Shown here in pieces: positions 2,598 to 30,513 of a DNA stretch of 30,513 bases (the stretch's first letter is position 1; every line of letters starts with the position of its first letter). A program made the position numbers and the translations under genes. Origin of the DNA: a virus; IMG/VR virus record IMGVR_UViG_3300005613_000287, positions 1-30,513 of that record; one strand, 5' to 3'. The notes beneath the pieces are model-generated. The model ran no database searches. It saw only the letters and a program-made list of their open reading frames with translations, and had not been told where the DNA came from.

Positions 2598-2990
2598 ATG
2601 ACTAGTACAGATAGTTTAAGAGAGTTAAGAAAAAAGTGGCAACATATTAGTTATGAAATGCCAATATATTTAGAAAAAAGTAATAAAAGAGATTATGTTG
2701 TTTATCATAATTATAGATGTATATTAGAATTTATATTAGTTTTGATTAAAGATAAAATATATTCTGATGTTTATATTGATAAAATAATTCTGAAATGTCA
2801 GGAAAATTTTGATAAAATATATGTTGAATGGAATGAAGATTCATATGATAAATTGTTTTTAATGTCTGCTGATTTAATTAACTTTATAGAAGGAATTATT
2901 GAAGATGCAGAACAATATGAATTATATGAAGTTTGTCATAATATAAAATCTTTTGATGAAAAATTTAAATTAATTAGTGAAGAAGAATGA
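2598..2990 (+). CDS. Hypothetical all-helical acidic protein
   Basis: I take ATG 2598 (130 aa). The frame is open back to a TTG at 2556, which would give 144 aa and overlap the small gene at 2462-2587. The protein is rich in Asp, Glu, Tyr and Ile, with predicted helices throughout and no membrane segment or metal motif. Its stop overlaps the GTG of the sigma-like gene by 14 bp, so the two are probably co-translated. No family is recognised. Confidence 0.65.
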   Translation: MTSTDSLRELRKKWQHISYEMPIYLEKSNKRDYVVYHNYRCILEFILVLIKDKIYSDVYIDKIILKCQENFDKIYVEWNEDSYDKLFLMSADLINFIEGIIEDAEQYELYEVCHNIKSFDEKFKLISEEE

Positions 2991-3543
2991 TATAATTATA
3001 TGGTTATATAATAATAAAGATTTTAATGATGGCTTTAATAAAATATGTACTGATGATAATTTTAAAGGAGATTTAATGCAAGAATTTTATCTGATACTTT
3101 TAGAAAAACCTGGAAATGAATTAAGAACATTATATTATAGTAAGAATTTAGTTTATTGGAGCTTAAAGATTTTAAAAAATCAATTTCATAGTAAAAGTAG
3201 TCCTTTTTATAAAAAATATAGAGTTAGAAAAGAAGATATAGAAGATTTGAATTTAATTGAAAATGAAACAGATTTAACAAGATATAAGATAATAGAAGAA
3301 GTTGAAAGAATTTTAGATGTAGATATACATTGGTTTGATGCACATCTTTTTAGATTATATTATTTAAATAATATATTAGAAGATGGTAATGAACTGAAAC
3401 CTATGAGTTTAAGAAAAATAAAAGAATTACATACATATGAAAATCTCTCAATAAGTATAAATACTATAACAAAAAGTCTATCAAAAACATTAACAACTAT
3501 TAGAAAAAAATTAAAAGAAAATTATGAAAAAGAAAGAGATTGA
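2977..3543 (+). CDS. Sigma-70-like factor, putative late transcription regulator
   Basis: This 188-aa protein starts with GTG 2977, preceded by AAATTAATTA; no earlier ATG is available. Residues 31-45 (GDLMQEFYLILLEKP) resemble the region-2 helix of sigma factors. Residues about 120-180 form a region-4-like helical pair with SLRKIKELH and a basic recognition-like helix (SLSKTLTTIRKKLK). Distant sigma-like proteins of this size are common in Bacteroidota phages. Its likely task is to direct host RNA polymerase to the AAATATATTTATA motifs before the late blocks. The last 20 bases overlap the first leucine-rich-repeat gene. The assignment is by pattern only and the binding site is inferred. Confidence 0.6.
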   Translation: MKKNDIIIWLYNNKDFNDGFNKICTDDNFKGDLMQEFYLILLEKPGNELRTLYYSKNLVYWSLKILKNQFHSKSSPFYKKYRVRKEDIEDLNLIENETDLTRYKIIEEVERILDVDIHWFDAHLFRLYYLNNILEDGNELKPMSLRKIKELHTYENLSISINTITKSLSKTLTTIRKKLKENYEKERD

Positions 3544-4312
3544 ATTAATTTGTAAAGAATATGGAATAGGAAATTATACCATTAATGAAGATGGGTCTAT
3601 TGATGTTCAAGGAAGTGTTCATTTATCTAATAAAAGATTAAAGAAGTTACCCATAAAATTTAAACACGTTAGTGGACATTTTAATTGTTCTAATAATCAA
3701 TTAACTACATTATCAGGAAGTCCAAGGACAGTAGGAGGTTATTTTGATTGTCATAATAATCAATTAACTACATTATCAGGAGGACCAAATTCAGTAGGAG
3801 GGAATTTTATTTGTTCTTATAATCAATTAACTACATTAGAAGGAAGTCCAAATTCAGTAGGAGGTAATTTTTATTGTTATAATAATCAATTAACTACTTT
3901 AGAAGGATCTCCAAAAAGTGTAGGTCTTAATTTTTATTGTTATGATAATAAATTAACTACTTTAGAAGGAAGTCCAAGAACAGTAGGAGGTGATTTTTGG
4001 TGTGATGATAATCAATTAACTTCTTTAGAAGGATCTCCAAAAAGTGTAGGTCATAGTTTTTATTGTAATAATAATCAATTAACTTCTTTAGAAGGATCCC
4101 CAAAAAGTGTAGGAGGTGATTTTTATTGTTCTAGAAATCAATTAACTACTTTAGAAGGAAGTCCAAGAACAGTAGGAGGTAGTTTTTATTGTAGAAATAA
4201 TAAATTAACTCTAGAAAGTTATGATAGTGATTATGTTAAATCTTATATTAAACAATTAAATAGAGATATAAAAATAAATGAATTATTAAATTATGAAAAA
4301 GAAAGAGATTGA
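3524..4312 (+). CDS. Leucine-rich-repeat protein, 8 repeats
   Basis: This 262-aa protein has three parts: an N-terminal cap (1-57, with YTINEDGSIDVQG), eight 21-residue repeats (58-225), and a C-terminal cap (LESYDSDYVKSYIKQLN). The repeat consensus is NQLTTLEGSP-x-x-VGG-x-FYC-x-x. The repeats form a solenoid; each has a conserved Cys. Proteins with this repeat are frequent in large Bacteroidota phages and their role is unproven; protein binding is the usual guess. It overlaps the sigma-like gene by 20 bp and its shorter paralogue by 20 bp, through the same DNA string at both junctions. Confidence 0.8.
   Translation: MKKKEIELICKEYGIGNYTINEDGSIDVQGSVHLSNKRLKKLPIKFKHVSGHFNCSNNQLTTLSGSPRTVGGYFDCHNNQLTTLSGGPNSVGGNFICSYNQLTTLEGSPNSVGGNFYCYNNQLTTLEGSPKSVGLNFYCYDNKLTTLEGSPRTVGGDFWCDDNQLTSLEGSPKSVGHSFYCNNNQLTSLEGSPKSVGGDFYCSRNQLTTLEGSPRTVGGSFYCRNNKLTLESYDSDYVKSYIKQLNRDIKINELLNYEKERD
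3695..4198 (+). repeat. Tandem 63-bp coding repeats (8 units)
   Basis: Eight in-frame 63-bp units begin with AATCAATTAACTAC or a close variant (AATAAATTAACT in one). Neighbouring units share long identical stretches, for example around GAAGGATCTCCAAAAAGTGT. Repeat number can therefore change by slippage or recombination without breaking the frame. Confidence 0.9.
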
Positions 4313-4766
4313 ATTAATTTGTAAAGAATATAATATAAGAAATTATACCATTAATGATGATGGGTCTATTGATGTTGATGGAGATGTTAATTTATCAGGA
4401 AGAAAATTAACAAAGTTACCTTTAAAATTTAGAAATCTTAGTGGTGATTTTGATTGCTATGATAATCAATTAACTACTTTATCAGGATCTCCAAAAAGTG
4501 TAGGAGGTTATTTTTATTGTACATATAATCAATTAACTACTTTAGAAGGATCTCCAAAAAGTGTAAAAGGTAGTTTTTATTGTAATAATAATCAATTAAC
4601 TACTTTAGAAGGAAGTCCTCAGGTAGAAGGTAATTTTTATTGTTCTGATAATAAACTAAATCTAGAAAGTTATGATAGTGAATATGTTAAATCTTATATT
4701 AAACAATTAAATAGAGATATAAAAATAAATGAATTATTAAATTATGGAATGGATGATATTATTTAA
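4293..4766 (+). CDS. Leucine-rich-repeat protein, 3 repeats
   Basis: This 157-aa protein is a tandem paralogue of the preceding gene. The N-terminal cap (1-57) and C-terminal cap (LESYDSEYVKSYIKQLN) are nearly the same, but there are only three repeats (58-119), the third being one residue short. The first 40 or so bases are almost identical to those of the first paralogue and are likewise embedded in the tail of the upstream gene. This indicates that whole genes, including the overlap junction, were duplicated. The last codons diverge (GMDDII) and overlap the next gene by 23 bp. Confidence 0.8.
   Translation: MKKKEIELICKEYNIRNYTINDDGSIDVDGDVNLSGRKLTKLPLKFRNLSGDFDCYDNQLTTLSGSPKSVGGYFYCTYNQLTTLEGSPKSVKGSFYCNNNQLTTLEGSPQVEGNFYCSDNKLNLESYDSEYVKSYIKQLNRDIKINELLNYGMDDII
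4464..4649 (+). repeat. Tandem 63-bp coding repeats (3 units)
   Basis: Three units (63, 63 and 60 bp) of the same family as 3695-4198, with identical blocks shared between the two genes. Recombination between the arrays could fuse or delete the genes in frame. Confidence 0.85.
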
Positions 4767-5201: not shown

Positions 5202-5667
5202 TAAAGAAGCACACTTCACAACAGATGAGTTAATAAATGAAATGTTTAATTTATTAAAAAAATATTATAAAGAAGATATATCAGAATATTTAGAAAATTC
5301 TGCTGGTGATGGTAGAATTATAGATAGATTTGATAAACCTTATATAGCTTTTGATATTAAAAGCAGAAGATATGATATAAAAGAATGTGATTATTTGAAA
5401 GAAAATATAGAATATAAGAAAAATAGAGTTTGTATAATGAACCCTCCTTTCAATAAAGGTTTGAAATTTTTATATAAAGCTCTTAAAGAATGTGATTATG
5501 TATTAACAATTCTAAGCCAAAATAGTCTATTAAATATTGATTATGATAAAGTATGGTGTGATGAAATACAATTGTGGAGAAAGTATGATTTTACCACTTG
5601 TAAAGCTGGAATTATTTTGGTTGCTTGTAGAAGTAAAAAAGAAGGTGATAAATATGAATATGAATAA
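5176..5667 (+). CDS. DNA N6-adenine methyltransferase-like protein
   Basis: This 163-aa protein has the SAM-binding motif I as ENSAGDGRI (40-48) and the catalytic motif IV as NPPF (89-92) after VCIMN. The order I then IV is that of the gamma/beta N6-adenine or N4-cytosine methyltransferase fold. At 163 aa it is smaller than most and shows no separate target-recognition domain, so its specificity may be loose. There is no restriction partner nearby; solitary phage methyltransferases commonly protect phage DNA or modify host DNA. Its 3' end overlaps the first of two paralogous genes by 14 bp. Confidence 0.75.
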   Translation: MSNLKYKGDKEAHFTTDELINEMFNLLKKYYKEDISEYLENSAGDGRIIDRFDKPYIAFDIKSRRYDIKECDYLKENIEYKKNRVCIMNPPFNKGLKFLYKALKECDYVLTILSQNSLLNIDYDKVWCDEIQLWRKYDFTTCKAGIILVACRSKKEGDKYEYE

Positions 5668-5992
5668 GACACTTGAGAATAGAAGAAAAGTTGGTGGTGA
5701 TAATTTTACAATTAAACATTCAAGAAGATCTAATTTATATTTAAGTGATTATATAGATAAATTCAATTTCAATGATTATTGGTGTTTTAAGTCAAGTGGT
5801 CATCAAAAATTAATAGATGAAGAAGATTTTCTAAAATTAAAATATTCTAGTTATATTTTCTTTAAAAAAGACTTATATAATGTTAATGAAATTATAGAAT
5901 GGATTGATTGGTGTAAAAATATAGGAGGAATACAATTCTTAGATAAATTAACTCCTCCTTTTAATCCTAAAAAAATTATAATAAAACAATGA
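5654..5992 (+). CDS. Hypothetical protein, first of a tandem paralogue pair
   Basis: This 112-aa protein starts at ATG 5654. The frame is open upstream to 5537, but that part overlaps the methyltransferase and has no counterpart in the paralogue, which begins with the same MNMNKT. Shared features are RKVGGD, SNLYL-x-DYI-x-KFNF, DYWCFK, HQKLIDEEDFLK and the ending TPPFNPKK-x-IIKQ. The mix of aromatic and basic residues suggests a compact alpha/beta domain. It overlaps its paralogue by ATGA. No function is recognised. Confidence 0.7.
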   Translation: MNMNKTLENRRKVGGDNFTIKHSRRSNLYLSDYIDKFNFNDYWCFKSSGHQKLIDEEDFLKLKYSSYIFFKKDLYNVNEIIEWIDWCKNIGGIQFLDKLTPPFNPKKIIIKQ

Positions 5993-6342
5993 ATATGAAT
6001 AAGACAATTGCGAATGTTAGAAAAGTTGGTGGAGATTATTTTAGGTTAATGTACCTAAGAAAATCTAATTTATACTTAAAAGATTATATTAATAAATTTA
6101 ACTTTGATGATTATTGGTGTTTTAAGGCAACTAATCATCAAAAATTAATAGATGAAGAAGATTTTCTAAAATTTGAATATTCTTGTTATGTTTTCTTCAA
6201 AAAAGAATTATATGATGTTAATAAAATTATAGAATGGACTGATTGGATAAAAGTAAATAGTGTTCAAAATGGTAATGGTGGTGGATATTTAGTTATACCA
6301 ACTCCTCCTTTTAATCCTAAAAAAGTTATAATAAAACAATAA
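5989..6342 (+). CDS. Hypothetical protein, second of a tandem paralogue pair
   Basis: This 117-aa protein is a close paralogue of the preceding gene along its full length. The main difference is a longer, Gly/Asn-rich loop (VQNGNGGGYL) before the conserved C-terminal TPPFNPKK. The four-base overlap (ATGA at 5989-5992) indicates coupled translation, so the two products may form a hetero-oligomer. It is the last gene of the accessory block; a promoter-like motif and the packaging genes follow. Confidence 0.7.
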   Translation: MNMNKTIANVRKVGGDYFRLMYLRKSNLYLKDYINKFNFDDYWCFKATNHQKLIDEEDFLKFEYSCYVFFKKELYDVNKIIEWTDWIKVNSVQNGNGGGYLVIPTPPFNPKKVIIKQ

Positions 6343-6344
6343 TT

Positions 6345-6364
6345 AAAAAAATATATTTATATAT
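6345..6364 (+). promoter_or_regulatory. AAATATATTTATATA motif (late class)
   Basis: AAAAAA-TATATTTATATAT lies directly before ATG 6365. The core AAATATATTTATA recurs at 11038, 20069, 23063 and 26107, each time before a structural block. Here it touches the start codon, so it would give a leaderless message if it is the promoter itself. Confidence 0.5.
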
Positions 6365-6634
6365 ATGGAATATAAAATAAAACAAGAACAAAGAGATTTT
6401 ATAAACTATCTTAAAAATAAAAGTCGTTTAGATGCGAATGATATATCTAAAATGCAAATACTTTATCAAGAGTTAATTAACAAATATAAGAAAGTGATTG
6501 TTGATTGGAGGTGTCCAGTTTGTTTAAGAAATGTAATAAAAGAATTGATAAGATTTGATGAAAGAAGTGAATTATATGAAGATAAAGTTGTTAAAGGGAA
6601 ACGATCTACAAAAACTAGAAAATCTTCTAAATAA
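6365..6634 (+). CDS. Hypothetical protein with CPVC motif
   Basis: This 89-aa protein has a helical N-terminus (KQEQRDFINYLKNKSRLD), a single CPVC knuckle at about 50-53 and a Lys/Arg-rich end (KGKRSTKTRKSSK). Small proteins of this kind often precede terminase genes in Bacteroidota phages. Nucleic-acid binding is likely from the basic tail, but the role is unknown. It starts right after a late-class motif and overlaps the following microprotein by 59 bp. Confidence 0.6.
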   Translation: MEYKIKQEQRDFINYLKNKSRLDANDISKMQILYQELINKYKKVIVDWRCPVCLRNVIKELIRFDERSELYEDKVVKGKRSTKTRKSSK

Positions 6635-6722
6635 ATTCATAGGAGATAAGAAAATTATTGATGTAAGTTTATATAAATATGATAGTTATATATTCTTAAT
6701 AAAATATTATGATATATTGTAA
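6576..6722 (+). CDS. Cse60-like microprotein (48 aa)
   Basis: The frame starting at ATG 6576 inside the preceding gene encodes MKIKLLKGNDLQKLENLLNK, then IGDKKIIDVSLYKYDSYIFL and the end YYDIL. The layout (KIKL, a helix beginning with L-x-x-LE, then an IID strand and a YxxY strand) is that of Cse60-type small proteins found in Bacillota and phages. Their function is not established. It fills the otherwise empty gap before the small terminase. The family call is from memory of the pattern. Confidence 0.6.
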   Translation: MKIKLLKGNDLQKLENLLNKFIGDKKIIDVSLYKYDSYIFLIKYYDIL

Positions 6723-6759
6723 TTTTTTTTTTACAAATAAAAACGTATCGAAGTGAAAT

Positions 6760-7161
6760 ATGCCAGATAAAAGACACAAATCAAAATTAAAAAAAGACGA
6801 TTTAATAGCTAAGGTTATTGAAATGCGTTTAAGAGAATGTAAATCAACAAGAACAATTCTAAAATATTTAGAAGATGAGGGACTTGGTAAAACTCAACAA
6901 TATAAATATCTAAGTTGGGCTAGGGAGGTTATTGCTGAACAATTTGATGCTACTAATAAAGAGGCTATAAACGAAGCTATAGGTCAATATGAATCAATTA
7001 TGGAAAAAGTACTTGAAGAAAAAAACTATAAGATTTGGAATGATATGAATAAGGAGTTGAATAAATTGAAAGGTTTATATACAGATAAATTGGAAGTTAA
7101 AGGTGAAATAACATATTCTGCTAAATTTCCAAATATAAATGATAATAATGATAATGAATAA
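6760..7161 (+). CDS. terS: Small terminase subunit
   Basis: This 133-aa protein has an N-terminal helix-turn-helix region (about 12-60, with RECKSTRTILKYLEDEGL and KYLSWAREVIAEQ), a helical oligomerisation segment (65-105), and the typical TerS end in which a beta-rich VKGEI string follows LYTDKLE. TerS recognises the packaging site and regulates the large subunit. Its position 42 bp before TerL confirms the call. The recognition site was not located. Confidence 0.85.
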   Translation: MPDKRHKSKLKKDDLIAKVIEMRLRECKSTRTILKYLEDEGLGKTQQYKYLSWAREVIAEQFDATNKEAINEAIGQYESIMEKVLEEKNYKIWNDMNKELNKLKGLYTDKLEVKGEITYSAKFPNINDNNDNE

Positions 7162-7203
7162 GATAAAATATACAAATTACTACGATAATAAATATAAAAT
7201 TAT

Positions 7204-8421
7204 ATGAATATAGAATTAGTAAAACCACATAAAAAACAATTTGATATAATTAATGCTTGTTTAGATGATGACATATTTTTTATTGTTGCGGTAATAGGTC
7301 GTCAATTTGGTAAAACTTTAATAAGTGAAAATATGGCTATTTATTGGGCATTAAACAATAAAAACACAATAACATATTGGATTAGTCCTACTGATTCACA
7401 AGCTCAAAAAGTATATAAAGAAATAAAAGAAGCTTTAATAAACAGTGGTGTTATAAAAAGTTCAAAAGCTCCTAAAGGTGATACTGAAATTATATTTAAT
7501 AATAATAGTAAGATATTGTTTAGAAGTGCTGCTTCTGAAGATAGTTTAAGAGGTCAAAGTGTTCATTATATGATTTTAGACGAAGCAGCTTTTATAAAAA
7601 AGGATACTATAGATAGTATATTGATGCCTATGTTAAATGTAACAGGTAGAAAATGTTTATTTATTAGCACTCCTAAGGGTAAGAATTATTTATATGATTA
7701 TTATAAGAAAGGTATGGATCCTAATAATAAAAAATGGAGAAGTATAAGATATTCTACATTTGATAGTCCTTTTGCTAATAAAGAATTGATACAAATGTAT
7801 AGAGAAACTCTACCAACTAAATTATTTCAACAAGAAATAGAAGCAGAATTTGTTGATTCATCATCAATTTTCAATAATTTAAATGATGTTATGATTTTAA
7901 ATAAACAAGAACCATTATCTAATAAAGATTATTATGTTGGTATAGATATTGGTATTGTAAATGATGCTACTGTTTTAACTATTTTAGATGAAAATGGTGA
8001 TATGGTTAATTATTTTAGATGGGAAAAGTTAGAAAGTCCAGATTTGATTAATGAAATAATAAATTTAAATAATAAATGGAAGTTTAAAAAGATTCTAATT
8101 GAAAATAATAATCAAGGATTGCCTATATATCAGGATTTAAAAAGGAAACTTAGTAATATAATTGATTTTAATACAAATAGTAAAACTAAACCAGAAATTA
8201 TAGATCGTTTAATACACCTTTTCAATATGAAAGAGATAAAAATAATTAAAGATGAATATTTAAGAATAGAATTAGAGAGTTTCATATTTAAACAAAATAA
8301 TGGTAATATAAAATATATGGCTGATAGTGGGTTTCACGATGATTGTGTTATTAGTTTGGCTATTGCTAGATATTGTTTTGAAAAGTTTAAATATAAAAGT
8401 GTTCCATTTTTTATTGGTTAA
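7204..8421 (+). CDS. terL: Large terminase subunit (ATPase and nuclease)
   Basis: This 405-aa protein has the Walker A-like GRQFGKT (32-38), the Walker B ILDEA (124-128) and the coupling motif STPKG (155-159). The RNase-H-like nuclease domain contributes D248 in VGIDIG, E300 in ILIEN and D379-D380 in FHDDC. All catalytic positions are present, so it should be a complete packaging motor. Length is typical of compact TerL. It is followed by an unusual insertion of a structured leader and a polymerase-like gene, not by portal. Confidence 0.95.
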   Translation: MNIELVKPHKKQFDIINACLDDDIFFIVAVIGRQFGKTLISENMAIYWALNNKNTITYWISPTDSQAQKVYKEIKEALINSGVIKSSKAPKGDTEIIFNNNSKILFRSAASEDSLRGQSVHYMILDEAAFIKKDTIDSILMPMLNVTGRKCLFISTPKGKNYLYDYYKKGMDPNNKKWRSIRYSTFDSPFANKELIQMYRETLPTKLFQQEIEAEFVDSSSIFNNLNDVMILNKQEPLSNKDYYVGIDIGIVNDATVLTILDENGDMVNYFRWEKLESPDLINEIINLNNKWKFKKILIENNNQGLPIYQDLKRKLSNIIDFNTNSKTKPEIIDRLIHLFNMKEIKIIKDEYLRIELESFIFKQNNGNIKYMADSGFHDDCVISLAIARYCFEKFKYKSVPFFIG

Positions 8422-8430
8422 AAAAAGTTT

Positions 8431-8472
8431 AAAAAAAGTGATAGGAGAGGCGAAAGTTTTAATATATATAAT
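8431..8472 (+). promoter_or_regulatory. GATAGG leader motif and promoter-like core before the RNA element
   Basis: AAAAAAAGTGATAGGAG (8431-8447) is followed by TTTTAATATATATAATT (8457-8473). A near copy, AAAAAAAGTTGATAGGGG (9951-9968) with AATAATATATAATAT, follows the polymerase-like gene at the same relative spacing. This could be a promoter with an upstream element, or the borders of an inserted cassette. Confidence 0.4.
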
Positions 8473-8555
8473 TGTAGGTTTGCGAGTTAACGGGTGAGAG
8501 GTAATTGGCTCACCCCCTACATAACAAAAAACTCGATAAAAATTAAACTCGCTAA
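8473..8555 (+). ncRNA. Structured RNA leader, pseudoknot-capable, before polymerase-like gene
   Basis: Two coaxial stems are visible: UGUAGG (8473-8478) with CCUACA (8516-8521), and GGGUGAG (8492-8498) with CUCACCC (8509-8515), capped by a 10-base loop. The strand between them (8479-8491) contains GCGAGUU. This can pair with AACUCG at 8530-8535 or with AACUCGC at 8546-8552, giving alternative pseudoknots; the second ends three bases before the ATG. The two downstream partners lie in an imperfect 16-bp tandem repeat (AAACTCG-x-TAAA). Local G+C is far above the surroundings. It matches no riboswitch or tRNA I recognise. It may control translation of the next gene, or serve as origin, primer or template for its product. 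Confidence 0.65.
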
Positions 8556-9962
8556 ATGAAAAATTATACAAAAAGGTATATACCTGAATCAATCGACAAC
8601 TTTTTAAAAAATCACACACACTCTTATACAAAATGGAATTCAAAAGATCTAAGTAGTGAAATTATATCACTAGATTATGATGGTTTAGTTATAGCTTGTG
8701 ATACTATACTTAGAGTATCTGGATCTAGAGATATAAATGATAAAAACTTCTGTGAGATACAGACAAATATTTTTCATAAAATATTACAAAATGATTATTC
8801 AAATTATATTAATTATCTAATAGATTGTAAAATAATAATAAGTGATAACTTTTACATTAAAGGTGAAAAGTCTATCGGTTATAAAATAAATGAATACTTT
8901 ATTGATGATTTAAAATCTATAGATATAAATAATAAATTATTCAATAAGAGAACATTAGCTTCAATAAAAAGTAATGTTAAACTTAAAGTTAGTAAGGAAC
9001 ATCAAAATAATTTCAAATCAACATTTAAGATTGATTATGATGAGGCAATAAAATATTTATTAAATTGTTATTTAACAAAAAAAGAAGATCATAAAGGTAG
9101 GATCTTAAATAAATATACTAAATCATTACTACAACATAAATTACTTCAAATAAAAGATGGTCAATTGTGGATTAACAGAAGTGATACCAATGGTAGAATA
9201 AATTCTAACTTTACTACTTTAAATGGTGATTATAAACAATTTATTATTGGATATGATTATAATATAGATATAAAAAATAGTCAACCTTTAATTCTTTCTT
9301 TGTTTATTGATTATGTTGCTGGTTTATCAGGTCAATTAAGTAAAGTTTATGATTTAAATTCAAGTTCAGCGGGGCTATATAATTTACATTTAACTAGTCT
9401 TTCCTCTTATGAATATAAAATCATACAAAAAAACCTCTCAAAGTCAAACCAGGTAAGGTTTATAGAAGATTTAGAGTCGATGAAATTACCAAGTAAAAAT
9501 GAGATAAAATTATGGAAAGAATTATGTCAAAAAGGTCAAATATATGAATATTTTCAAAGGGAAATTTACACATTAACAGGAAAGAAATTTACAAGAACAG
9601 AGGTAAAGGAGATATTTATAACTATACTTTATTCTTCTAATAGAAGTCAAAGTGAGTATAAGAAATTATTTTCAGCTATATTCCCATCAATATACAATTT
9701 TATTTCAAAGATTAAGAATTTATTAAAAGAAAAAAGAAGTCATAGGATATTCCCAATAATGATGCAAGGAATAGAAAGTTTCTTAATGGTAGAACAAATA
9801 CTTCCTAAATTAGATAAAATGAAAATTAAATATCATTTTATACACGATGGTTTAGTTATAAAGGAAGATGATGTTGATAGAGTTGAATTATTAATAATGC
9901 AAGAATTTGGATATTTTAGATTGAGTCCAAGTTTAAGTATAGAAAAACTAAAAAAAAGTTGA
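8556..9962 (+). CDS. Divergent family-A polymerase-like replication protein
   Basis: In this 468-aa protein, residues about 65-115 look like a winged helix of the plasmid Rep type (a helix pair, then DNFYIKGEKSIGYKINEYF). The C-terminal half carries a degenerate family-A polymerase palm: motif A as DIKNSQP (238-244), an O-helix-like motif B with R347, K351 and Y359 in RTEVKEIFITILYS, a QG motif as MQGIES (403-408), and motif C as HDGLVI (430-435). The usual 3'-5' exonuclease and much of the fingers are absent. No other polymerase, primase or helicase is seen in the genome. It is a good candidate for the phage replication protein, or for a polymerase acting with the RNA at 8473-8555. Polymerase activity is inferred from motifs only. 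Confidence 0.6.
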   Translation: MKNYTKRYIPESIDNFLKNHTHSYTKWNSKDLSSEIISLDYDGLVIACDTILRVSGSRDINDKNFCEIQTNIFHKILQNDYSNYINYLIDCKIIISDNFYIKGEKSIGYKINEYFIDDLKSIDINNKLFNKRTLASIKSNVKLKVSKEHQNNFKSTFKIDYDEAIKYLLNCYLTKKEDHKGRILNKYTKSLLQHKLLQIKDGQLWINRSDTNGRINSNFTTLNGDYKQFIIGYDYNIDIKNSQPLILSLFIDYVAGLSGQLSKVYDLNSSSAGLYNLHLTSLSSYEYKIIQKNLSKSNQVRFIEDLESMKLPSKNEIKLWKELCQKGQIYEYFQREIYTLTGKKFTRTEVKEIFITILYSSNRSQSEYKKLFSAIFPSIYNFISKIKNLLKEKRSHRIFPIMMQGIESFLMVEQILPKLDKMKIKYHFIHDGLVIKEDDVDRVELLIMQEFGYFRLSPSLSIEKLKKS

Positions 9963-9993
9963 TAGGGGCAGCAACAAAAATAATATATAATAT
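9951..9993 (+). promoter_or_regulatory. Second GATAGG motif and promoter-like core
   Basis: AAAAAAAGTTGATAGGGG overlaps the stop of the polymerase-like gene and is followed by AAAATAATATATAATAT just before ATG 9994. It mirrors 8431-8472 and so brackets the polymerase-like cassette. Confidence 0.4.
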
Positions 9994-10134
9994 ATGATGA
10001 AAGAAATAGATATTTTACTAAACAGATTAGAAATGGAATTAATTTTTAATGATAATCAAAAAGAGATAGAAAATTTACGAAATAAAATTAAACAATTAAA
10101 AAGAGATGCTCTTATTGATGAGATTTTATCGTAG
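9994..10134 (+). CDS. Small coiled-coil protein (46 aa)
   Basis: The frame encodes MMKEIDILLNRLEMELIFND, then a heptad-like stretch (EIENLRNKIKQLKRD) and a Leu/Ile-rich end. A second Met directly follows the first, so the start is at 9994 or 9997. It stands between the polymerase-like gene and the tail chaperone with its own promoter-like string. A coiled-coil dimer is likely. No family is recognised. Confidence 0.55.
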   Translation: MMKEIDILLNRLEMELIFNDNQKEIENLRNKIKQLKRDALIDEILS

Positions 10135-10179
10135 CAAAAGTGGCTATAAATTATTTTGGAAAAAAACCATTATTTATTA

Positions 10180-10192
10180 ATAATATATAATA
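10180..10192 (+). promoter_or_regulatory. Promoter-like AATAATATATAAT
   Basis: AATAATATATAAT lies 16 bases before ATG 10209 of the tail-assembly chaperone, followed by an A-rich leader. Confidence 0.35.
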
Positions 10193-10208
10193 AAAAAAAG
10201 AAATAAAT

Positions 10209-10829
10209 ATGATAGATTTAACTATAGGAAAAGAAAATTTTGAACTACCTGAAAGTTATGATGAATTAAGTTTAGGTAGATTTATAGAATTATCAAAAGT
10301 TTTAGATAAACAAAAAGAATATAAAAGTGATTTAAGGTTTAGTTTAGAAGTTTTATCTAAACTAATAGGTTGTGAAGTTTCATTATTATATGAATTATCT
10401 ATTGATGATGTTTCATTATTATCAGAGGAGATAAAATGGATTAATGAAAATCCAAAGAGAACAAAAAACAATAAAGTTGTTATTGATGATAAAGAATACT
10501 TAGCAGTTTCAACTAATAAGATTACAACTGGTGAGATGATATCAATTGAGAGTTTTCAGCAGAATATAACTGATAATAGAGACAATTTACATTATGTAAT
10601 GGCGATTTTATTTAGGCCAGTTGTTGATGGAAAAGTATGTCCATTAGAAGATGATTTTGATATAATCACAGAAAGGGCTGAATTATTCAAAGAAAAGATG
10701 ATGATTGGTGAGGTATATGGGCCTCTTATGGGTTTTACGAGTGGCGCCAGTGGATATTCTTCGAGGAGTTCGGTGCGTTCTTCAATCCTAAAAATCAAAA
10801 AAAGAAAAGTAAATTCAGGGAAAAAGTAG
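10209..10829 (+). CDS. Tail assembly chaperone, unshifted product (gpG-like)
   Basis: This 206-aa protein has a helical N-terminal domain (FELPESYDELSLGRFIELSK) seen in tail-chaperone proteins of Bacteroidota phages. In lambda-type phages gpG and its frameshifted form gpGT coat the tape measure during tail-tube assembly. After residue 176 the sequence becomes Ser-rich and then Lys-rich (GYSSRSSVRSSILKIKKRKV), typical of a frame read through DNA that encodes another protein in the -1 frame. The gene sits about 10 kb from the tape measure, unlike in most siphophages. Confidence 0.75.
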   Translation: MIDLTIGKENFELPESYDELSLGRFIELSKVLDKQKEYKSDLRFSLEVLSKLIGCEVSLLYELSIDDVSLLSEEIKWINENPKRTKNNKVVIDDKEYLAVSTNKITTGEMISIESFQQNITDNRDNLHYVMAILFRPVVDGKVCPLEDDFDIITERAELFKEKMMIGEVYGPLMGFTSGASGYSSRSSVRSSILKIKKRKVNSGKK

Positions 10830-30235: not shown

Positions 30236-30339
30236 AGTTAAGAAAAGGTTGATCCTCCTCTACTATATATTATTATACTCCTCCTTATGTAGGCCGTTTT
30301 TTTTTGAAACTCTTTAAAATAAAGGATCGTTATTTTTTA
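30236..30339. repeat. Right copy of genome-end repeat
   Basis: These 104 bases are identical to 1-104. After 30339 the two copies diverge until 30409, where identity with 827 onward resumes. Confidence 0.95.
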
Positions 30340-30348
30340 CTTTCTATA

Positions 30349-30358
30349 AAAAATCCAT
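30349..30358. other. Empty (HNH-less) allele of the insertion site
   Basis: A single AAAAATCCAT is present here, whereas the first junction copy has two, flanking the HNH gene. The 9 bases before it (30340-30348) and the 50 bases after it (30359-30408) also differ in part from the HNH-bearing copy; the 50-base segment is the same length in both. Confidence 0.75.
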
Positions 30359-30369
30359 TCTTTCTAAAA

Positions 30370-30408
30370 AGTTGTTTTTTTAGTTTATATATAAAAATAA
30401 AAACAACT
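30370..30408 (+). promoter_or_regulatory. Start-adjacent inverted repeat, allelic version of 788-826
   Basis: AGTTGTTTTT (30370-30379) pairs with AAAAACAACT (30399-30408) around TTAGTTTATATATAAAA, and ATG 30409 follows directly. The loop differs from the first copy, but both arms are kept. Confidence 0.55.
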
Positions 30409-30513
30409 ATGAGTAAATATTATGAAGACAGTATCGTAGAAAGAATGTATCTAAAAGAACTAACCAATAGACTTAGAGATACATTTGATATAAAATTATA
30501 TCAAACACCACCT
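30409..30513 (+). CDS. PD-(D/E)XK-like nuclease, 5' part (cut by window end)
   Basis: These are the first 35 codons of the same gene as 827-1414, identical in sequence, reached again because the window overruns one genome length. It is not a second gene. Here it follows the HNH-less leader. Confidence 0.9.
   Translation, partial: MSKYYEDSIVERMYLKELTNRLRDTFDIKLYQTPP

Follow-up and report, generated by a model that had tools for sequence, protein, structure and literature searches.

The window analyzed here is the complete viral record IMGVR_UViG_3300005613_000287, positions 1 to 30,513. The gene under study is an ATG-started plus-strand frame of 468 amino acids at 8556-9962, lodged behind the gene for the large terminase subunit (Table 1). 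In single-sequence searches its product was recognized by none of the Pfam, NCBIfam, or PADLOC models, the DNA polymerase I model PF00476 gave no match, and the best match in PHROGs reached just E = 0.11. Searches of PDB sequences with phmmer and hmmsearch returned nothing useful (one Pol I chain, E = 3.7).

Table 1. Features of the polymerase gene and of its surroundings in the window
Feature	Position	Strand	Size or basis
TV-Pol-like minimal family-A polymerase gene	8556..9962	+	468 aa
Winged-helix-like N-terminal domain, residues 41-124	8676..8927	+	Structure models; low-Z winged-helix matches; aligns with TV-Pol N-terminal region
Template-side hairpin DTNGR, residues 210-214, invariant R214	9183..9197	+	Conservation; TV-Pol/Pol I hairpin arginine (PMC2579912)
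Motif A, DIKNSQP, residues 238-244, predicted first catalytic Asp	9267..9287	+	Near-invariance in 101 rows
Motif B, fingers helix, R347-S360	9594..9635	+	Profile alignment with Pol I RxxxK...YG helix
QxxE motif, MQGIES, residues 403-408	9762..9779	+	Q404 aligns with Pol I QG motif
Motif C, IHDG, residues 429-432, predicted second catalytic Asp	9840..9851	+	Aligned with Pol I VHDE
terL, large terminase subunit	7204..8421	+	PHROG terminase, E 3e-48; upstream edge of slot
Variable slot after terL, holding the polymerase gene	8422..10208	+	30 bp in relative L119
Gene of unknown function, downstream edge of slot	10209..10829	+	Conserved in L119
Left contig end	1..104		Recurs at 30236-30339, 100% identity
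Right-end overlap	30236..30513		Matches 1-104 and 766-931; without HNH gene

The protein is a minimal family-A polymerase, with a putative short thumb, a palm, and fingers, and no exonuclease. Its AlphaFold model has a mean pLDDT of 83 and a pTM of 0.81, and family-A polymerases appear throughout among the matches listed by Foldseek against the PDB. In a second structural comparison, Bst Pol I aligns with model region 133-467 (Z = 14.6 over 261 residues); T7 DNA polymerase reaches Z = 13.3 against the model. By profile comparison, the family matches a PolA profile of about 25 sequences at E = 7.8e-5 (whole protein) and 7e-7 (core), and the two line up at motifs B and C and at the Q motif; seven unrelated control proteins score E = 0.28-0.87. 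Only this Pol I alignment clearly beats the controls; a single sequence of Pol I, divPolA2, or T7 RNA polymerase scores weakly. We take the Pol I equivalents to be R754 for R347, K758 for K351, Q849 for Q404, and HD881-882 for HD430-431. Three helices (143-156, 161-173, and 186-200) precede the hairpin in the AlphaFold model, where TV-Pols have a minimal two-helix thumb. The window protein shares palm, fingers, motif residues, and profile and fold matches with the Pol I proteins of PF00476, but it escapes detection by that model, lacks the exonuclease domains, has shorter fingers, and carries an extra winged-helix-like N-terminus.

The motifs listed by a first-pass annotation of the sequence are all present (DIKNSQP 238-244, R347/K351/Y359, MQGIES 403-408, and IHDG 429-432), and they are the conserved positions of a first alignment of seven sequences. 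Among 101 aligned relatives, R214, D238, S242, and Q243 occur in every row; N241, P244, K351, E407, and D431 each in 100; and H430 and Q404 in 97 each. Position 347 is R in 68 rows of this alignment and K in 30. Since the named motifs are near-invariant across the 101 relatives, they are not chance or degenerate look-alikes, and the annotation's description of them as degenerate is wrong for the family, in most members of which motif B is spaced as in Pol I (Rx3Kx3[FY]x3[FY]G). Motif C reads HDS in most members. The window copy departs slightly from the consensus at I355, S360, and G432. The position of motif A comes from the hairpin and from spacing, not from the Pol I profile alignment; by spacing, Q243 takes the position of the Pol I steric-gate Glu. 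The polymerase palm, named beforehand as a test of the annotation, is found in the predicted structure, and the residues conserved in homologs match the motifs. We consider the window protein likely to be catalytically competent.

When folded alone, the N-terminal 132 residues yield a model of lower confidence (pLDDT 73), and its leading structural matches are mostly winged-helix proteins (Z ≤ 6.4). Of the proposed Rep-type winged helix, these matches support a generic winged-helix fold without singling out Rep, and nothing among them points to plasmid Rep proteins. Among the three kinds of protein suggested for profile and structure comparison, Pol I matched, T7 RNA polymerase scored no better than the controls, and Rep was not indicated by the N-terminal fold matches.

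The closest known kind of protein is the TV-Pol group of transposon-virus polymerases, defined in 2008 by Iyer, Abhiman, and Aravind (PMC2579912). These are minimal family-A cores of 400-600 aa without a nuclease, found on mobile elements with integrases or resolvases, and the hairpin arginine is conserved in TV-Pols and Pol I (PMC2579912). Our TV-Pol comparison set is small: It consists of Ma-LMM01 gp030 and relatives from plasmids and Bacteroidota, with gp030 taken as a TV-Pol from its motifs and the adjoining transposase, not from the record annotation (Ma-LMM01 was covered to 100 kb). A profile of this set matches the family at E = 9e-6 in the N-terminus and E = 1.7e-4 in the core, with the motifs in register. 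The likeness extends to the minimal core without a nuclease, the hairpin Arg, the fingers RxxxK, the two palm Asps, and the linkage to integrases on mobile elements. Both sets also have the LQxxE signature and an HD(G/S) motif C, the TV-Pol set showing the hairpin Arg, an LQxxE-like motif (LLQGVES, LLQRIEV), and HDG. In the window itself the polymerase gene has no integrase linkage. The two sets differ in motif A, which is DIxNSQP in the window family and YDxxxxH in most TV-Pols examined (one relative has YDLKSSQ). Moreover, the window family is centered on Bacteroidota and huge phages and is joined to the TV-Pols at the profile level only, and no D5-like helicase was recognized in the surveyed neighborhoods of its members. 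Because the comparison set is small, we file the protein as a TV-Pol-like branch and not as a firm member of a named subfamily.

The sole biochemically tested TV-Pol found in the literature searched is CcPol, which extends primers alone and makes DNA primers with its partner MP (PMC7581432, PMC10061031), using dNTPs (PMC7581432). CcPol-MP and the PolA-SSB primases of SCCmec and other Bacillota elements share with the window protein the family-A core, the occurrence on integrative elements, and possible primer making. However, CcPol primes only with the SSB-like MP, and its gene is paired with a helicase gene; neither a helicase nor an SSB partner is recognizable next to the polymerase gene in the window. 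The divPolA1 and divPolA2 proteins of tailed phages are likewise divergent, short, and PolA-like. In the text covered (PMC11348598), they are presented as additional to a regular DNA polymerase, divPolA1 retains a dead exonuclease domain, and DIxNSQP is not reported. Foldseek matches our model to a divPolA2-type protein of Rheinheimera phage Barba31A (E = 3.7e-5), and the profile alignment with divPolA2 as a single sequence is weak (E = 0.011); divPolA2 is a more distant structural neighbor than the TV-Pols. As a kind, minimal family-A polymerases of mobile elements were already known in 2008. In the limited literature searched, the DIxNSQP branch of Bacteroidota and huge phages, its tRNA-targeted, defense-bearing elements, and its position as sole replication gene are not described.

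By tblastn, the window protein has weak relatives in huge phages, the best at E = 4e-13, and a weak relative on one Hymenobacter plasmid at E = 3e-10. An alignment-based scan found 80 loci in viral contigs and 31 in bacterial genomes, the latter nearly all Bacteroidota. Members occur in 15 of 395 sampled Bacteroidota genomes, and the window protein was matched in 17 of 299 Flavobacterium genomes, so that about 4-6% of the genomes sampled in these groups carry one. In the tree, a chromosomal Flavobacterium clade is the weakly supported neighbor (97/48) of the window protein. The huge phages with a member are about 600-735 kb in size. In one 595-kb phage (L002), a separate short Pol I-like gene (5963-7249) directly follows the family member, giving two family-A proteins in tandem, and the Hymenobacter plasmid also has an annotated replication initiation protein and ParA. 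Since the huge phages and the plasmid encode other polymerases or replication genes, the family member is an extra in large replicons. A general role of the family as a plasmid Rep, which we considered, is weakened by the plasmid's own replication protein. The neighborhood in huge phages is conserved (L041, L060, L064, and about 50 other loci): a gene of ∼443 aa, the polymerase, a gene of ∼179 aa, and then a gene of ∼252 aa on the opposite strand. In Tenacibaculum (L090, 9857-11914), the member is a 686-aa fusion with a C-terminal GIY-YIG homing endonuclease.

A tyrosine recombinase/integrase gene lies directly upstream, on the same strand and within 1.6 kb, at 12 of the 31 chromosomal loci, and in four of those 12 a tRNA gene is found just ahead of the integrase. 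The locus in Pontibacter vulgaris (L110, 7432-19994) is a 12.5-kb integrative element bounded by a 20-bp direct repeat of the tRNA-Leu 3′ end (chance about 3e-6). The island has a GC content of 33%, compared with 44% outside, and matches in two further Pontibacter genomes pass from one flank straight into the other through the joined tRNA/terminator site, as an empty site would. The genes of this element encode the integrase, the TV-Pol-like polymerase, a McrBC-like pair, a HEPN-like protein, and unknowns, which leaves the polymerase as its sole recognizable replication gene. In Bacteroides fluxus (L101, 8038-11823), tRNA-Met, integrase, and polymerase are followed by an ApeA-like defense gene. 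Because the defense genes vary while the integrase-polymerase pair recurs, the defense genes look like cargo. Near the polymerase, a protein of 113-116 aa is conserved in L090 (7029-7367), L109 (11655-12002), and L110 (11146-11484) only; no solved relative of the 113-aa form was found in the PDB, and we regard this neighbor as a candidate SSB-like partner. The L109 member also has a Sak4-like recombinase gene nearby. In Bacteroidota chromosomes, the family is probably the replication gene of small integrase-bearing elements, starting the copying of element DNA.

Turning to the window phage, the two contig ends overlap: Besides the exact repeat of the left end, 766-931 recurs at 30348-30513 with 95% identity. 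The contig therefore most simply closes on itself as a circle of ∼30.2 kb (30,235 bp), although it could conceivably stem from a larger genome in which a module is duplicated. This self-overlap supports the 30-kb genome size assumed at first pass better than the record's "linear" label suggests. An HNH/endonuclease VII-like gene (146-766) is present at the left end and missing from the otherwise matching right-end overlap; it is probably a homing-type presence/absence polymorphism at the circle junction and the cause of the "linear" label. PHROGs identifies terminase, portal, protease, tail, holin, methyltransferase, and endonuclease/nuclease genes in the window but no replication gene, and there is no DNA_pol_A match. 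Within these searches, the first-pass statement that 8556-9962 is accompanied by no further polymerase, primase, or helicase is borne out. Iteron-like repeats are absent from the flanks of the polymerase gene.

The slot after terL is variable. In L119, a close and near-complete phage relative with a 69% identical TerL, the next gene begins 30 bp after terL, and its 28.65-kb contig has neither a family member anywhere nor a replacement replication gene; a GTSGTS repeat at the end of this contig leaves room for a small gap. The gene is thus not core to this phage group, and a role as essential replicase is not established. Calling it the only replication candidate is literally true of the window, but the gene is absent from L119. 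As an alternative replication gene, we considered and rejected the methyltransferase encoded upstream of terS in L119 and L121.

On balance we lean slightly toward an acquired primer-making polymerase or initiator of the TV-Pol type, with the host replisome taking over. Starting from homology, motif conservation, predicted fold, and genomic context, we infer catalysis, origin binding, primer making, and hand-over as follows. The N-terminal domain would bind element or phage DNA, the palm would synthesize either a short primer or the initial part of the new strand, and host helicase and replisome would then continue copying; the copy in the window phage, its only dedicated replication gene, appears to be an acquisition that occupies the variable slot behind terL. 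The integrase-linked elements and the TV-Pol kinship make an initiator or primer role the best supported function, as the first-pass annotation had suggested; it is context and kinship that speak for it, and for the protein in the window phage we put such a role at about even. Against the overall reading stand the L119 phage without the gene, the status as an extra in large replicons, the lack of iterons and of a partner, and the off-consensus residues I355, S360, and G432.

Several of these points would also suit an active but accessory family-A polymerase, one that fills gaps, takes part in repair or recombination-coupled synthesis, or bypasses lesions, with phage replication left entirely to host enzymes. 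The absence without replacement in L119, the members beside other replication genes in huge phages and a plasmid, and the Sak4-like annealing/recombination gene in L109 all fit such a role. In small elements, however, the gene sits right behind the integrase, the usual place of a replication gene, the L110 element has no other recognizable one, and TV-Pol kinship points to priming; we consider an accessory role rather unlikely. That the gene is a mere passenger, a leftover of an integrative element or homing-type cargo without a role in the phage, is suggested by the variable slot, the weakly supported neighboring Flavobacterium clade, and the GIY-YIG fusion in Tenacibaculum, but it is quite unlikely: The frame is intact and all catalytic residues are kept although identity to relatives is about 25%, and such retention requires lasting selection.

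A T7-like single-subunit RNA polymerase, serving transcription or making RNA primers, might explain the HDS motif C of most members (T7 RNA polymerase has IHDS) and Gln243 at the steric-gate position. Against this, the T7 RNA polymerase profile match (E = 0.24) is no better than the controls, DNA polymerases lead the fold lists, promoter-recognition parts of the T7 type are not seen in the 468-aa protein, and CcPol uses dNTPs (PMC7581432), so that we regard this explanation as very unlikely. A defense or counter-defense function, also raised at first pass, finds no support in PADLOC, where none of 58 members had a meaningful match. McrBC-like, HEPN-like, or ApeA-like genes do lie beside members in related integrative elements, but they look like variable cargo next to a recurring integrase-polymerase pair, and a defense role of the protein itself seems highly improbable.

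If the primer-making reading is followed further, a single protein of 400-500 aa might start replication by combining origin recognition through its winged helix with priming by its family-A palm, a proposal we make tentatively. It is similarly doubtful whether such a start plus the host replisome would be enough for a 30-kb phage and for small tRNA-integrated elements, and we can only suggest, with the same reserve, that it might need no helicase, separate primase, or SSB partner supplied by the element. If true, this would make the protein a family-A equivalent of primase-type Rep proteins. Family-A primase activity has so far been shown biochemically for CcPol-MP (PMC7581432, PMC10061031); should the proteins described here prime DNA synthesis, they would provide a second, helicase-free test case for family-A polymerases as primases and would explain how replication starts in some minimal phages and in many of the unclassified integrative elements of Bacteroidota. 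The branch is missed by four protein-family libraries, yet it is present in over 80 metagenomic viral contigs, in huge phages, and in Bacteroidota, often behind an integrase on elements able to carry defense genes.

Elsewhere in the window, 2977-3543 is a probable sigma-factor-like gene, whose L119 homolog weakly matches sigma-70/ECF region 4 models. Two adjacent genes at 3524-4766 are composed of 63-nt (21-aa) repeats, NQLTTLEGSPxxVGGxFxC, in ten register copies, and their products are leucine-rich-like. A pair of tandem duplicated genes occupies 5537-6342 (88% identical over 190 nt, spacing 335).
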